This document shows positions 7,298 through 63,336 of a stretch of 64,000 nt of DNA, one piece after another. Both the position numbers and the translations under genes were made by a program. Within the stretch, counting starts at the first letter, position 1. Each line of letters begins with the position of its first letter. The DNA comes from Pseudomonadota bacterium (GTDB taxonomy: Bacteria; Pseudomonadota; Gammaproteobacteria; Burkholderiales; Sulfuriferulaceae), in contig JAJYYK010000002.1 in assembly GCA_021801025.1 (NCBI GenBank), positions 124,001 through 188,000 on the forward strand. The letters are read 5' to 3'. The notes beneath the pieces are model-generated. The model was not told the DNA's origin and searched no databases. It worked only from the letters and a program-made list of their open reading frames with translations.

Positions 7298-7573
7298 TTA
7301 TTCGGCAACAGGCGAAACCGTTTCAGTTGCTGACGGCGCAGCCGCCAGTTCCAGTGCAACAATCCGGCCTTCCAGTGCCACCAGTTGCTCACGGGTACGC
7401 ACCAGAACCTGTTGCTGCACATCAAATTCTTCACGTGTCACAAGGTCGAGTTTTTGTAACAGACTTTGCAATAAAGCGCGCAGATTACTCTCCACATCCT
7501 TCAACGGGCCAGATTGCAAAGTTTGGCTGAATTTACTGCTCACTTCATCAATCAAATTTTGATTGAACAACAT
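7298..7573 (-). CDS. ubiK: Ubiquinone biosynthesis accessory factor UbiK (YqiC/BMFP family)
   Basis: This is a small protein of about 91 aa with the UbiK pattern: an N-terminal amphipathic helix (LFNQNLIDEVSSKFSQTL), a charged middle, and a C-terminal coiled coil beginning DLVTREEFDVQQQVLVRTREQL and ending LEGRIVALE. UbiK assists the cytosolic ubiquinone biosynthesis complex and binds UbiJ and lipids. Three starts lie in a row (GTG 7579, ATG 7576, ATG 7573). The GGAG at about 7581-7584 favours one of the ATGs. The C-terminus ends in an Ala/Val-rich tail. Confidence 0.88.
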   Translation of the reverse strand: MLFNQNLIDEVSSKFSQTLQSGPLKDVESNLRALLQSLLQKLDLVTREEFDVQQQVLVRTREQLVALEGRIVALELAAAPSATETVSPVAE

Positions 7574-7663
7574 CATCACTCTCCGTCAATAAATTAGATC
7601 ACGCTATTCTAACCCGTATCCAAACTGAATATAATGCGTTCGTAAAAAATACCCACCACATTC

Positions 7664-7680
7664 CGCACCACATTGGTGCG
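7664..7680. promoter_or_regulatory. NtrC-binding-site-like palindrome, strong copy
   Basis: CGCACCACATTGGTGCG is a 17-bp palindrome that fits the enteric NtrC (GlnG) site TGCACC-N5-GGTGCA except at the two outermost bases. It lies about 140 bp upstream of the sigma-54 promoter at 7820, in the range expected of an enhancer. Confidence 0.7.
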
Positions 7681-7695
7681 CAACCTTTCTGCAAA

Positions 7696-7712
7696 CGCGC
7701 TGATATAGTGCG
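7696..7712. promoter_or_regulatory. NtrC-binding-site-like palindrome, weaker copy
   Basis: CGCGCTGATATAGTGCG keeps the GC and GTGC positions of the NtrC consensus but is less symmetrical than the first copy. Its centre is 32 bp from that of the first site, which is three helical turns. This is the spacing of the paired NtrC enhancer sites at E. coli glnAp2. Confidence 0.5.
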
Positions 7713-7819
7713 GAGTAAATCAAAGTGGAACATGAAATCAACGATCCGAATGAAGTATCCATCTCAACCATTAAAAAAATCACCTTTAATTACATATTAA
7801 TATGATAAAAATAAGTCTT

Positions 7820-7835
7820 TGGCACAGTGTGTGCT
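7820..7835 (+). promoter_or_regulatory. Sigma-54 promoter for the porin-glnK-amtB genes
   Basis: TGGCACAGTGTGTGCT has the invariant GG (7821-7822) and GC (7833-7834) elements of a -24/-12 promoter with exactly 10 nt between them. It lies 46 bp before the porin start and downstream of two NtrC-like sites. Together these predict activation under nitrogen limitation. Confidence 0.72.
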
Positions 7836-7881
7836 TAATATCACATCGCAATATTGCGTTTTTATTATTCGGAGCATAATG

Positions 7882-8706
7882 ATGAACAAAATGAAAAAAT
7901 CTTTACTGGCTATCGCACTGGCTACCTTGGCGGGCCCCGTTTTGGCAGACACCGCAGCACCTGCGGCACCTGCACCCAGCTACACTTTAACGGCAAACGT
8001 CGATTTGAGCAGCCAATACATTTATCGTGGCCTGACACAAACTAACGGCAATCCTGCAATTCAAGGCGGTGCCGATTTGACCATGGCCAATGGTTTTTAC
8101 CTCGGTACTTGGGGCTCCAATATCAGCTGGTTTTCAGATGCCAATCCAGCACCTGCATCATCTTTAAGTATGGAATGGGATTTATACGGTGGTTACGCCC
8201 AGACCATCGGCGACTATGGTTACAACGTCGGTGTATTACAGTATTACTATGATGGCAGTTATGGGAACTTGTACTCAGCCACCTCTGGCACTGTAAATCC
8301 CAACACCACGGAAATTTATGCCTTGGTGTCGTACAAAACCCTGAGCTTTAAAGTGTCTGATGTCGTGTCCACAGGTTTATTCGGGGTTGCAGATGCCAGC
8401 GGCTCTTATTATGCAGACCTGTCATGGAACCCTGCGTTGACTGACACCCTGACGCTGAACACGCACGTGGGAGAACAAAAATACACAGGGACATCTGCAT
8501 TCGGAAAACCATCTAACGATTCCCTGTATTCTTATACAGATTACAAATTGGGAATCACCGCAGACCTGAGCAAGGAATTGGGTACTGGCTGGAGTGGTAC
8601 AGCGTATTACACCTATGCCAACACAAGTGGCATAGGTTTCACAAACAGCATGACCAGTAACATTGGCGGTAGTCGCACCACCGTTGCCATCGCTCGCACC
8701 TTCTAA
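7882..8706 (+). CDS. TorF-family putative outer-membrane porin
   Basis: This is a 274-aa outer-membrane protein. The ATG at 7882 is chosen for its distance from GGAG at 7871-7874; ATG 7879 is the alternative. It has a clear signal peptide (KKSLLAIALATLAGPVLADT), an Ala/Pro spacer, then the family hallmark TANVDLSSQYIYRGLTQT and alternating aromatic beta strands ending in a C-terminal Phe. This family is often found beside glnK-amtB in proteobacteria, and the sigma-54 promoter directly in front points to nitrogen control. It may let ammonium, urea or small nitrogen compounds cross the outer membrane. The substrate is not known from the sequence. Confidence 0.88.
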   Translation: MNKMKKSLLAIALATLAGPVLADTAAPAAPAPSYTLTANVDLSSQYIYRGLTQTNGNPAIQGGADLTMANGFYLGTWGSNISWFSDANPAPASSLSMEWDLYGGYAQTIGDYGYNVGVLQYYYDGSYGNLYSATSGTVNPNTTEIYALVSYKTLSFKVSDVVSTGLFGVADASGSYYADLSWNPALTDTLTLNTHVGEQKYTGTSAFGKPSNDSLYSYTDYKLGITADLSKELGTGWSGTAYYTYANTSGIGFTNSMTSNIGGSRTTVAIARTF

Positions 8707-8742: not shown

Positions 8743-9111
<369 letters not shown>

Positions 9112-9122
9112 GGGGGAACAAA

Positions 9123-10619
9123 ATGAAAAAATGGCTCATTGCGTTAAGCATGTTGTTCACTCTGGGTGCAAACGGCGTGGCGTTGGCGGACAATGCCACA
9201 CCGGCTGTTGCACCACCTGCGGCGGTCTCGGCAGCAGCAGCACCACCTGCTGCGACTGTAGCGCCAACGACTCCTGCAGCAGCAACGCCTGCGGCAGCGG
9301 CACCTGCAGCCGCACCAACGCCCATTGATAAGGGCGACACCACGTGGATGCTGATTTCCACTGCGCTGGTGATCATGATGACCATCCCTGGCTTGGCCTT
9401 GTTTTACGGTGGTTTGGTTCGCACCAAAAATATGCTGTCCATGATGACGCAAGTGTTCGTCATTTTCTGCCTGATCTCGGTGTTGTGGATGGTGTATGGC
9501 TATTCGTTTGCCTTCACCGATGGCGGCTCGCTCAATAACTGGATAGGCGGCGCTTCACGGGTATTTATGCATGGCTTGAACCCGCAGGACGTTTTGGCGG
9601 CCACGGAAACTTACACCAAAGGGGTGTATATTCCTGAAATCGTGTTCATGGTGTTCCAGATGACTTTTGCTGCAATCACCGTGGCTTTGGTAGTGGGTGG
9701 TTTGGCTGAACGGGTGAAATTCTCCGCTTTACTGGTGTTCTCGGTACTGTGGTTCACCTTTGCTTATCTGCCCATTTCCCACATGGTGTGGTTCTGGGGT
9801 GGTCCTTCTTCCTACCAGGCCCCCTCGGGTTTCCTGTTTGGCAAAGGTGCGCTGGACTTCGCCGGTGGCTCTGTGGTACACATCAACTCTGGTATCGCCG
9901 CGTTAATGGGCGCGATTGTATTGGGCAAACGCATCGGCTACGGCAAAGAACCCATGGCGCCACACAGCATGGTCATGACCATGATCGGTGCTTCACTGTT
10001 ATGGGTGGGTTGGTTCGGCTTCAATGCCGGGTCTAACCTGGAAGCCGCCTACCCTGCCGTCCTTGCTATGGGTAACACCATTGTGGCGACCGCAGCCGCT
10101 GCTTTAACCTGGATGTTCATTGAATGGTTATTGCGTGGCAAACCCACCCTGCTGGGTGTCGTATCTGGCGCTGTCGCAGGTCTGGTAGCAGTGACCCCAG
10201 CTTCCGGTTTTGTCGGCCTGATGGGTGCTTTGGTACTGGGTATGGTAGTTGCAACGGTTTGCTACTGGAGCGTCAACAGCCTGAAAAGAATGTTGGGTTA
10301 CGATGATGCGCTGGATGCATTCGGTGTCCATGCCGTGGGCGGTATTGTGGGTTCCATCGGCACAGGCATTCTGGTCAACCCAGCCCTGGGCGGTACAGGC
10401 GTATTTGACTACGGCGCAAACAAAGTCGCGGCGTATGTGCTGCATGATCAGCTGATCAGCCAGTTTTGGGACATTGGCGTGACCATCGTGTGGTCGGGCG
10501 TGGTCAGCTTCGTGCTGTTCAAACTGATCGATATGACCATGGGCTTGCGTGTTTCTGCAGAAGATGAACGTGAAGGTCTGGATATCACTTCACACGGTGA
10601 ACGCGCTTACGACATGTAA
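9123..10619 (+). CDS. amtB: Ammonium transporter AmtB, copy 1
   Basis: This is a 498-aa ammonium channel of the Amt/Rh family. A cleavable signal peptide (KKWLIALSMLFTLGANGVALAD) is followed by an Ala/Pro-rich spacer of about 40 residues, then 11 transmembrane helices starting at GDTTWMLISTALVIMMTIPGL. The pore and dimer hallmarks are present: ALFYGGLVRTKNMLS, WFWGGPSS, DFAGGSVVHINSG with its pore His, and DAFGVHAVGGIVG with the second pore His. The C-terminal tail ends in EGLDITSHGERAYDM, where GlnK docks. It follows glnK by 11 nt. A terminator lies 24 bp after the stop. Confidence 0.96.
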   Translation: MKKWLIALSMLFTLGANGVALADNATPAVAPPAAVSAAAAPPAATVAPTTPAAATPAAAAPAAAPTPIDKGDTTWMLISTALVIMMTIPGLALFYGGLVRTKNMLSMMTQVFVIFCLISVLWMVYGYSFAFTDGGSLNNWIGGASRVFMHGLNPQDVLAATETYTKGVYIPEIVFMVFQMTFAAITVALVVGGLAERVKFSALLVFSVLWFTFAYLPISHMVWFWGGPSSYQAPSGFLFGKGALDFAGGSVVHINSGIAALMGAIVLGKRIGYGKEPMAPHSMVMTMIGASLLWVGWFGFNAGSNLEAAYPAVLAMGNTIVATAAAALTWMFIEWLLRGKPTLLGVVSGAVAGLVAVTPASGFVGLMGALVLGMVVATVCYWSVNSLKRMLGYDDALDAFGVHAVGGIVGSIGTGILVNPALGGTGVFDYGANKVAAYVLHDQLISQFWDIGVTIVWSGVVSFVLFKLIDMTMGLRVSAEDEREGLDITSHGERAYDM

Positions 10620-10642
10620 GTTAATTTTCACCGGCAACAAGA

Positions 10643-10672
10643 ACAGGGCACCTTTCGGGGTGCCCTGTTTTA
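10643..10672 (+). terminator. Rho-independent terminator after amtB copy 1
   Basis: CAGGGCACC and GGTGCCCTG form a 9-bp GC-rich stem around a short TTTCGG-type loop, followed by TTTTATTT. It closes the first glnK-amtB transcript. Confidence 0.9.
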
Positions 10673-10890
10673 TTTCATGGTGATCAATCCATGATCCTAA
10701 AAACAGCAGTTGATCGCTTGTTTGCGGATGTCACAATTTACAGCCAAAGAACATTTTATTCTTTCGCCATTCACCCATTTGGCTATTTTAATTCTCACCC
10801 TGTTTTCACCCTGCCATGGTCATTTCGCGCATGTTTTGCTGATTTCTGTTAAATTATGCGAGTACAAACACAAAATTCGTACTCAATTAA

Positions 10891-11241
<351 letters not shown>

Positions 11242-11256: not shown

Positions 11257-12720
11257 TTGAAACAATGGTTCATTGCATTAAGCCTATTCTGCACCTTGTG
11301 TGGCCACAGCGCCGCATTTGCTGACAATGGGTCGTCGATTGCCAACGCACCTGTGGCAATCGCCAGCGGCATGCCAACTTCCAGTGTGTCACCCCTTCTC
11401 GCCGCGACACCCACACCAAAACCGATTGATAAGGGCGACACCACATGGATGCTTATTTCTACAGCGCTGGTGATCATGATGACCATCCCGGGCCTGGCAT
11501 TATTTTATGGTGGTTTAGTTCGCACCAAAAATATGCTGTCCATGATGACGCAAGTGTTCGTCATTTTTTGCCTGATCTCGGTGTTATGGATGCTGTATGG
11601 TTACTCGTTTGCTTTCACCGATGGGGGAGCACTCAATAACTGGATAGGCGGTACTTCACGGATATTCATGCATGGCTTAAATCCACAAGACGTTTTAGCC
11701 ACCACGGAAACTTATACGAAAGGGATATATATTCCTGAAATCGTCTACATGCTGTTTCAAATGACCTTTGCCGCAGTCACTGTCGCAGTGGTTGTCGGTG
11801 GCTTGGCTGAGCGGGTAAAATTTTCTGCATTGTTAATTTTCTCGGTGCTATGGTTTACTTTTGATTATTTACCTATCTCCCACATGGTATGGTTTTGGGG
11901 TGGCCCTTCTTCTTATCAGTCTCCTTCCGGTTTCTTGTTTGGCAAAGGCGCGCTAGATTTCGCAGGCGGTTCTGTGGTGGAAATCAACTCTGGCGTGTCT
12001 GCTTTAGTCGGTGCATTGGTACTAGGTAAACGCATCGGTTATGGCAAAGAACCGATGGCGCCACACAGCATGGTCATGACGATGATTGGCGCGGCACTGT
12101 TGTGGGTAGGCTGGCTCGGTTTCAATGCTGGCTCTAACCTTGAAGCCACGTACTTCGCCGTGTTGGCCATGGGTAACACCATCGTAGCGACCGCAACGGC
12201 AGCCATGACCTGGATGTTCATTGAATGGCTGTTACGTGGCAAACCCACCCTGTTGGGTGTCGTGTCTGGTGCCGTAGCTGGCGCAGTTGCCATCACACCT
12301 GCGGCGGGTTTTATCGGTTTAATGGGCGCTTTACTATTGGGCATCATCGTTGCTGTAGTCAGCTACTGGAGCGTCAACAGCTTGAAAAGAATGTTAGGCT
12401 ATGATGATTCGCTGGATGCATTCGGTGTCCATGCCGTAGGTGGCATCGTAGGATCCGTTGGTACAGGCATCCTGGTTGACCCCGTTTTGGGTGGTAGAGG
12501 TGTATTTAACTATGGCACAAACAAAATGGCGACGTATGTGTTGCACGACCAACTCATCAGCCAGTTTTGGGATATTGGCGTAACCATCGTGTGGTCCGGT
12601 GTGGTCAGCTTTGTGCTGTTCAAACTGATCGACATGACCATGGGCTTGCGTGTTTCTGCCGAAGATGAACGCGAAGGTCTGGATATCACTTCGCACGGTG
12701 AACGCGCTTACGACATGTAA
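11257..12720 (+). CDS. amtB2: Ammonium transporter AmtB, copy 2
   Basis: This is a 487-aa ammonium channel starting at TTG (11257), 15 nt after glnK2, with a GGGAGG ribosome binding site. It has a signal peptide, a shorter and less Ala-rich spacer than copy 1, then the same 11-helix core. One clear change is in the first pore-His region: copy 1 reads DFAGGSVVHINSG, while this copy reads DFAGGSVVEINSG. The second pore His (DAFGVHAVGG) is kept. The C-terminal GlnK-docking tail is identical. The His-to-Glu change in the twin-His motif is known from fungal Mep2-type paralogues and alters conduction and pH dependence, so this copy may differ in transport mode. Confidence 0.95.
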   Translation: MKQWFIALSLFCTLCGHSAAFADNGSSIANAPVAIASGMPTSSVSPLLAATPTPKPIDKGDTTWMLISTALVIMMTIPGLALFYGGLVRTKNMLSMMTQVFVIFCLISVLWMLYGYSFAFTDGGALNNWIGGTSRIFMHGLNPQDVLATTETYTKGIYIPEIVYMLFQMTFAAVTVAVVVGGLAERVKFSALLIFSVLWFTFDYLPISHMVWFWGGPSSYQSPSGFLFGKGALDFAGGSVVEINSGVSALVGALVLGKRIGYGKEPMAPHSMVMTMIGAALLWVGWLGFNAGSNLEATYFAVLAMGNTIVATATAAMTWMFIEWLLRGKPTLLGVVSGAVAGAVAITPAAGFIGLMGALLLGIIVAVVSYWSVNSLKRMLGYDDSLDAFGVHAVGGIVGSVGTGILVDPVLGGRGVFNYGTNKMATYVLHDQLISQFWDIGVTIVWSGVVSFVLFKLIDMTMGLRVSAEDEREGLDITSHGERAYDM

Positions 12721-12742: not shown

Positions 12743-12773
12743 AAAGGGCACACTTCGGTGTGCCCTTTTTTTA
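12743..12773 (+). terminator. Rho-independent terminator after amtB copy 2
   Basis: AAAGGGCACA and TGTGCCCTTT form a 10-bp stem around CTTCGG, followed by a run of T residues. It separates the ammonium genes from murI. Confidence 0.92.
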
Positions 12774-62801: not shown

Positions 62802-63336
62802 TTTATCCGTCCGCCTCGTGTCATCACCAGTCGGGTAACCGGTGAGATAGTAAAAATATTATTTGTTACATGTAATTACTTTAACCCAAACAGGCTCTTT
62901 AAGTCTTCACAAACGAAGATAATTTATTTCTTTGCCATGTTCAGTTCAGCACCTGTCGTTCACAACGCGCTTCTTTCAATCCAGATGACCGTGCCTCGTC
63001 ATCTCGCATCCTGATGGATTATTCGGATTTCACAAATAAGCGGTTAATGATCATGTTTCATGACGCGCAACAACCTGCCTTATCCCGCAAAACCGTCTCC
63101 ATTCAGAGACAATAATAATTCACTTTATTTTCATTATGTTGCAACTATAACCGAATCATTTGGGGATGATCTGTCGCTGTCAGGCGACAGATCATCCTGA
63201 ATCGTAACGCCAGCTCACACATCAATTCCTTTTATTTATACTAAAAAATACAATTAATCAATAAGATAATAAGAACATCTTATTTTGGCCCAATAATTGC
63301 TTAATGTACTGCAACTCATCACCACACACCTGCAAC
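62802..63336. other. 535-bp divergent intergenic region between glrK and opgH
   Basis: No protein or RNA gene was recognised. The centre is AT-rich. Promoters for glrK and opgH should lie here, but none could be assigned with confidence. It contains the strong hairpin at 63164-63197. Confidence 0.5.
63164..63197. other. Perfect 14-bp inverted repeat upstream of opgH
   Basis: GGATGATCTGTCGC and GCGACAGATCATCC flank the 6-nt loop TGTCAG. No T-run follows on either strand, so it is not a simple terminator. It may be an operator or an RNA structure 140 bp ahead of opgH. Confidence 0.6.

Follow-up and report, generated by a model that had tools for sequence, protein, structure and literature searches.

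A very likely NtrC/sigma-54 promoter in front of a TorF-family porin gene, glnK and amtB

Described operons and the genes of the locus

The closest described counterpart is the nlmA-glnK-amtB (orf1-glnK-amtB) operon of Herbaspirillum seropedicae. According to the accessible passages of PMC3023670, its expression depends on NtrC, and nitrogen limitation raises an amtB::lacZ fusion 21-fold. They name NlmA as a membrane protein detected when nitrogen was limiting, and give its location as 'most probably in the periplasm'. Likewise, the accessible text of PMC10274813 describes a Caulobacter operon of glnK and an AmtB-family gene that NtrC binds and activates.

Because the accessible part of PMC3023670 is silent on NlmA as a TorF protein, the published forward primer was searched in 392 genomes (the family of genome G191). 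It matches 12/392, all of one genus code. All 12 loci carry a porin-like match, glnK and amtB in this order, preceded in every case by a sigma-54 element that scores 11/12 against the consensus and by an exact NtrC-like palindrome. In one of these genomes (G496, locus L256), both published primers match exactly around a glnK that lies behind a Gcw_chp gene (E 9e-47), and from these primers we infer that it is H. seropedicae. By this route nlmA would belong to the same Gcw_chp family as the porin described below.

The DNA analysed here is a stretch of 64,000 nucleotides (the window). Like the H. seropedicae operon, it has a Gcw_chp-family first gene followed by glnK and amtB, and profile searches with Pfam and NCBIfam agree with the earlier note in calling these genes a TorF-family porin, glnK and amtB. 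The putative porin gene (TorF family, Gcw_chp, TIGR02001; nlmA homologue) occupies 7879-8706 on the + strand, starts with ATG at 7879 or 7882 and encodes 275 aa, with an N terminus that looks signal-peptide-like by eye. It matches PF09694 at E 5.8e-43 (148 bits; cut-off 24) and TIGR02001 with 139.4 bits (cut-off 47.15). It is the only Gcw_chp match in the genome (2.38 Mb, 20 contigs). On the same strand follow glnK (8773-9111; NF007946, 184.9 bits, cut-off 181) and amtB (9123-10619; TIGR00836, 441.8 bits, cut-off 343.3), with gaps of 66 bp between porin and glnK and 11 bp between glnK and amtB. A pattern scan found no + strand terminator in either gap. After amtB lies a terminator-like + strand hairpin at 10640-10671 (fold -24 kcal/mol, z -5.16), which is absent from the list of the pattern scan. 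The same locus is found in Sulfuriferula multivorans TTN (NZ_BGOW01000003.1).

Upstream, a divergent UbiK-like gene of the BMFP family lies at 7298-7579 on the - strand (Pfam BMFP E 3.5e-24; NCBIfam UbiK 71.5 bits, below the cut-off of 100). The intergenic stretch between it and the porin gene, 7580-7878, holds all three promoter motifs described next.

Promoter elements and their recurrence

Site 1 of the putative enhancer, GCACCACATTGGTGC (7665-7679, centre 7672), is a GCAC-N7-GTGC palindrome with 8/8 matching positions, and site 2, GCGCTGATATAGTGC (7697-7711, centre 7704), is a 7/8 copy. Downstream of them on the + strand, the putative sigma-54 -24/-12 element TGGCACAGTGTGTGCT (7820-7835) has GG at 7821-7822 and GC at 7833-7834. 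The earlier note had proposed two palindromes with centres 32 bp apart and a -24/-12 element with the correct 10-nt spacing, and both are borne out. Its placing of the palindromes upstream also holds, although their distance is slightly larger than the 110-140 bp given: from their centres to the GG it is about 118 and 150 bp, and the sites start 123 and 155 bp ahead of the -24 element. The sigma-54 consensus is TGGCACG-N4-TTGCW, against which TGGCACAGTGTGTGCT scores 10/12. The strict pattern TGGCAC-N5-TTGCW has 6 matches genome-wide and misses TGGCACAGTGTGTGCT because the -12 half is GTGC, not TTGC.

This arrangement is that of glnAp2-type enhancers, with paired GCAC-N7-GTGC sites about 30 bp apart and 100-plus bp upstream of a -24/-12 element. 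The difference lies in the genes, as the glnAp2-type promoter drives glnA whereas that of the window would drive porin-glnK-amtB. The 12 Herbaspirillum-type loci, whose first-gene products are 34-39% identical to that of the window, carry a single exact site, 116 bp upstream of the -24 element (in two of them joined by an additional distant 7/8 site), rather than two sites at 123 and 155 bp.

From the position of the -12 element, transcription is predicted to start near 7846. At this predicted start lies another palindrome, CGCAATATTGCG (7847-7858), which is kept within the genus: the pattern CGCAA-N(0-6)-TTGC occurs in 6/7 genus loci, with a near match in the seventh (L146), and in 7/91 loci overall. 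The RNA of the 5' leader (7845-7884) folds no better than its shuffles (z 0.11).

Could these motifs have arisen by chance? Shuffling the dinucleotides of 7581-7879 20,000 times never produced the site pair (0/20,000); it produced a sigma-54 element of at least 10/12 in 56 cases and one exact palindrome in 33. On both strands of the 64-kb window there are 7 sigma-54-like sites of at least 10/12, and only TGGCACAGTGTGTGCT has NtrC-like sites (at least 7/8) within 300 bp upstream. Sites 1 and 2 are also the sole pair 29-34 bp apart among the 33 window sites of at least 7/8. Genome-wide, exact palindromes number 57, versus 31 for the reversed control pattern. A lone exact palindrome is not rare in this genome, and the combination of motifs is. 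These shuffles, together with the comparisons below, go against the view that the resemblance is accidental and the operon is transcribed from a sigma-70 promoter. That view can point to one weak sigma-70-like match at 7840-7868, the scan finding 5 matches versus a shuffle average of 6.8, and we regard it as extremely improbable.

The genome's own glnA promoter provides a reference. There, a 9/12 sigma-54 element is preceded by exact NtrC-like sites at distances of 126 and 156 bp, nearly the geometry of the porin promoter (123 and 155 bp). Downstream of glnA come one small open frame and then a histidine kinase gene and ntrC. The genome has one match to rpoN, which encodes the sigma-54 factor, and one to ntrC above cut-off (690 bits). 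Five further long matches to the ntrC profile fall below cut-off, and a sigma-54 activator other than NtrC might therefore use the palindromes. On the other hand, a like palindrome pair precedes glnA near ntrBC, and the homologous Herbaspirillum operon requires NtrC according to the accessible text of PMC3023670, so that we consider a different activator very improbable.

Among congeners, the matching pair lies 77 and 108 bp before the -24 element, versus 123 and 155 bp in the window, whose enhancer is thus about 46 bp farther upstream. An alignment of six genus promoters places 43 bases unique to the window at 7739-7781, between enhancer and -24 element, with ends that depend on the alignment.

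Elsewhere in the genome (contig C12, locus L153, 1028-1313), two exact NtrC-like palindromes 23 bp apart accompany a 10/12 sigma-54 element. They precede an open frame whose dCache match falls short of the Pfam cut-off, and this may be a further NtrC target. The 16-base sigma-54 element of that locus is repeated at position 63286 of the window.

Recurrence in relatives was scored in 117 porin loci, taken best matches first with none dropped. The features scored were a sigma-54 element matching 10/12 or better within 400 bp, an NtrC-like site matching 7/8 or better, and a pair of sites 29-34 bp apart. Loci with glnK and amtB downstream of the porin gene were called linked (96) and the others unlinked (21); because the panel consists of best matches and is not a random sample, the linked share of 96/117 is not an unbiased estimate. 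The porin itself is not universal within the genus or the order, being matched in 10/18 genus genomes (E ≤ 0.001) and 162/300 genomes of the order (E ≤ 1e-20).

In linked loci, a sigma-54 element occurs in 91/96, together with an NtrC-like site in 87/96 and with the pair in 59/96, so that the paired motif pointed out in the earlier note is also found before TorF porins of relatives. The corresponding numbers for unlinked loci are 4/21, 3/21 and 3/21. Composition shuffles of the linked set give 20/1920, 2/1920 and 0/1920. Measured back from the -24 element, the sites concentrate at offsets of 76-81 and 107-112 bp. Exceptions among linked loci are 9/96 without element plus site, 37/96 without the pair and 5/96 without a sigma-54 element at the cut-off (L034, L118, L119, L122 and L159). 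Three of these glnK-linked loci, L118, L119 and L122, share one family code (f32). A panel of named genomes (77 of 80 named loci), which shares genomes with the 117-locus panel and is not independent of it, gives 57/58, 51/58 and 31/58 for linked loci and 3/19, 0/19 and 0/19 for unlinked ones.

We also considered the divergent UbiK-like gene as the owner of the enhancer. It is not favoured, because the reverse-complemented linked stretches give a sigma-54 element in 1/96, none with an NtrC-like site (0/96) or pair (0/96). Reverse-complemented unlinked stretches give 3/21, 2/21 and 2/21, both pairs coming from L157 and L158.

Given the rarity in shuffles, the recurrence in relatives, the genome's own rpoN and ntrC and the similar glnA promoter, NtrC/sigma-54 control of porin-glnK-amtB is very likely. 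The nitrogen control suggested for the porin together with glnK and amtB in the earlier note is thus strongly supported, by conservation, by the own glnA promoter and by the published NtrC dependence in Herbaspirillum. Since that dependence is published for a homologous operon, the regulation is not new; the promoter is an ordinary one, with experimental precedent.

We assign a probability of roughly 0.8 to the whole explanation, namely that 7665-7835 is the NtrC/sigma-54 promoter of torF(nlmA)-glnK-amtB and that the encoded barrel raises permeability for a nitrogen solute. When nitrogen is short, dimers of phosphorylated NtrC would occupy both sites and form an active oligomer, which would loop to the sigma-54 polymerase at 7820-7835. 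A single torF(nlmA)-glnK-amtB transcript would then start from about 7846, as motif and homology suggest. Its first product, predicted to be a small 12-strand outer-membrane barrel, would be made together with AmtB, the inner-membrane ammonium channel, and the regulator GlnK. The barrel would most likely serve to make the outer membrane more permeable to a small nitrogen solute at low external supply, with ammonium or methylammonium as first candidates, or else urea or amides.

Tandem to this operon is a second glnK-amtB copy, which goes unmentioned in the earlier note. The order is amtB, the strong terminator-like hairpin, glnK2 (10903-11241, +; 301/339 bases identical to glnK) and amtB2 (11257-12720, +; TIGR00836, 431 bits), with another terminator-like hairpin at 12743-12768 after amtB2. 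Over 1500 aligned positions, amtB2 and amtB have 1193 identities, 268 mismatches and 39 gaps. As the stretch ahead of glnK2 (10617-10902) has neither a sigma-54 element scoring 8/12 or better nor an NtrC-like site scoring 7/8 or better, glnK2-amtB2 appears to lie outside the promoter at 7665-7835. The second copy is not seen in the compared stretches of three congeners (L154-L156), where other genes follow amtB.

The porin and its possible solute

AlphaFold2 applied to 22 aligned porins gives 12 strands with a mean pLDDT of 82.6. Among solved structures, KdgM and NanC come closest in fold (Z about 16 over 163-185 aligned residues), and autotransporter and phospholipase barrels are also among the fold neighbours of the model. 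Thus the porin is predicted to be a 12-strand barrel like KdgM and NanC. A PDB search with the porin profile found no relative by sequence (E ≤ 1). Because Foldseek alone returns a large and mixed set of barrels with low TM-scores, we claim the barrel class alone and no substrate from the structure. All 22 aligned porins match Gcw_chp, and none matches another Pfam family at E ≤ 0.001.

The linked porins do not form a single clade. On a tree of 121 rows, among which the L266 row (84 aa, very long branch) is to be ignored, the 'unlinked' label needs 14 changes, at least 10 of them by well-supported branches. Within the genus, glnK-linked porins sit on separate branches (L008 with L154-L156; L012 with L018; L146). 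The changes of label and the scattered branches suggest that selection may keep such a barrel in the operon slot rather than one porin lineage.

A search covering mostly open-access literature listed PMC3023670 as the only paper on this porin, nothing under the name Gcw_chp and, in accessible passages on the TorF porin, none on nitrogen control.

Two congeners (L157 and L158) carry another TorF-family gene behind an 11/12 sigma-54 element and a weaker NtrC-like pair. In one of them the gene is followed by the urea-transporter genes urtABC, and in the other by a formamidase gene, an FmdB-type gene and urtA/urtB-like genes. Because the barrel model fits and family members adjoin urea and formamide genes in these two congeners, import of a nitrogen source by the porin is plausible.

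Porins are tied to nitrogen uptake in two further described systems. The fmdCABDEF genes of Methylophilus methylotrophus encode a porin, a formamidase and an amide/urea ABC transporter, and are repressed by high ammonia according to the accessible text of PMC10781810. The likeness is that an outer-membrane porin gene stands beside nitrogen-compound uptake; in genome G004, a TorF-family gene precedes fmdA-fmdB. In contrast, the genes before fmdA in four genomes of family f26, among which M. methylotrophus itself was not identified, are open frames of 380-402 aa that do not match TorF. Two of these frames were scanned, and one has a weak Porin_O_P match (E 3e-5) and neither matches Gcw_chp. TorF in the place of FmdC is not a general rule, being found in 1/30 formamidase loci (30 loci out of 40 places listed; L270, the same place as L158). 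Homologues of the L157/L158 paralogue in other genera (L266-L269) have no urea or formamidase match in their short flanks.

In Burkholderia cenocepacia, the porin BCAL3473 is raised by nitrogen depletion and is involved in amine and amino acid transport, while its change in an NtrC mutant is given once as down and once as up in the accessible passages of PMC10117139, and as -4.2 in a table of PMC5491218. It is a different porin, one of a large Burkholderia porin family by its published description as far as accessible.

A competing possibility accepts NtrC/sigma-54 control of the promoter but gives the porin a task other than nitrogen import, such as adapting the envelope in general or letting another solute pass under nitrogen stress. 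As 18/21 unlinked members lack the motif combination, a nitrogen role, judged from promoters, is not a trait of the whole TorF family, and the accessible part of PMC5955497 annotates the Shewanella gene torF, from which the family takes its name, as a porin of the TMAO reductase system. Against this stand the repeated coupling to glnK-amtB behind this promoter and the fact that in two congeners a family member adjoins urea or formamidase genes. We thus hold a non-nitrogen role to have a real but minority chance, and a nitrogen-solute channel remains the likeliest role of the porin.

A broader proposal, which we make tentatively and put a little short of even odds, is that low-nitrogen scavenging has an outer-membrane arm made of TorF barrels. 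One branch would serve ammonium with GlnK-AmtB and the other urea and short amides with an ABC transporter and formamidase, both under NtrC/sigma-54. If so, nitrogen starvation would tune outer-membrane permeability as well as inner-membrane uptake, and passage of ammonium or urea through the outer membrane would come under regulation alongside Amt transport. The finding connects a little-studied, putative outer-membrane family (of unknown function by its Pfam title) with nitrogen starvation in many genomes of one order, and opens the TorF-family substrate to direct tests.

Two observations concern the paralogue loci. At L157 (2980-9753) and L158 (3197-10000), sigma-54-like elements face both ways, the second one towards a solute-binding protein gene. 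At L015 and L132, unlinked TorF-family genes adjoin a distant relative (27-29% identity) of that solute-binding protein.
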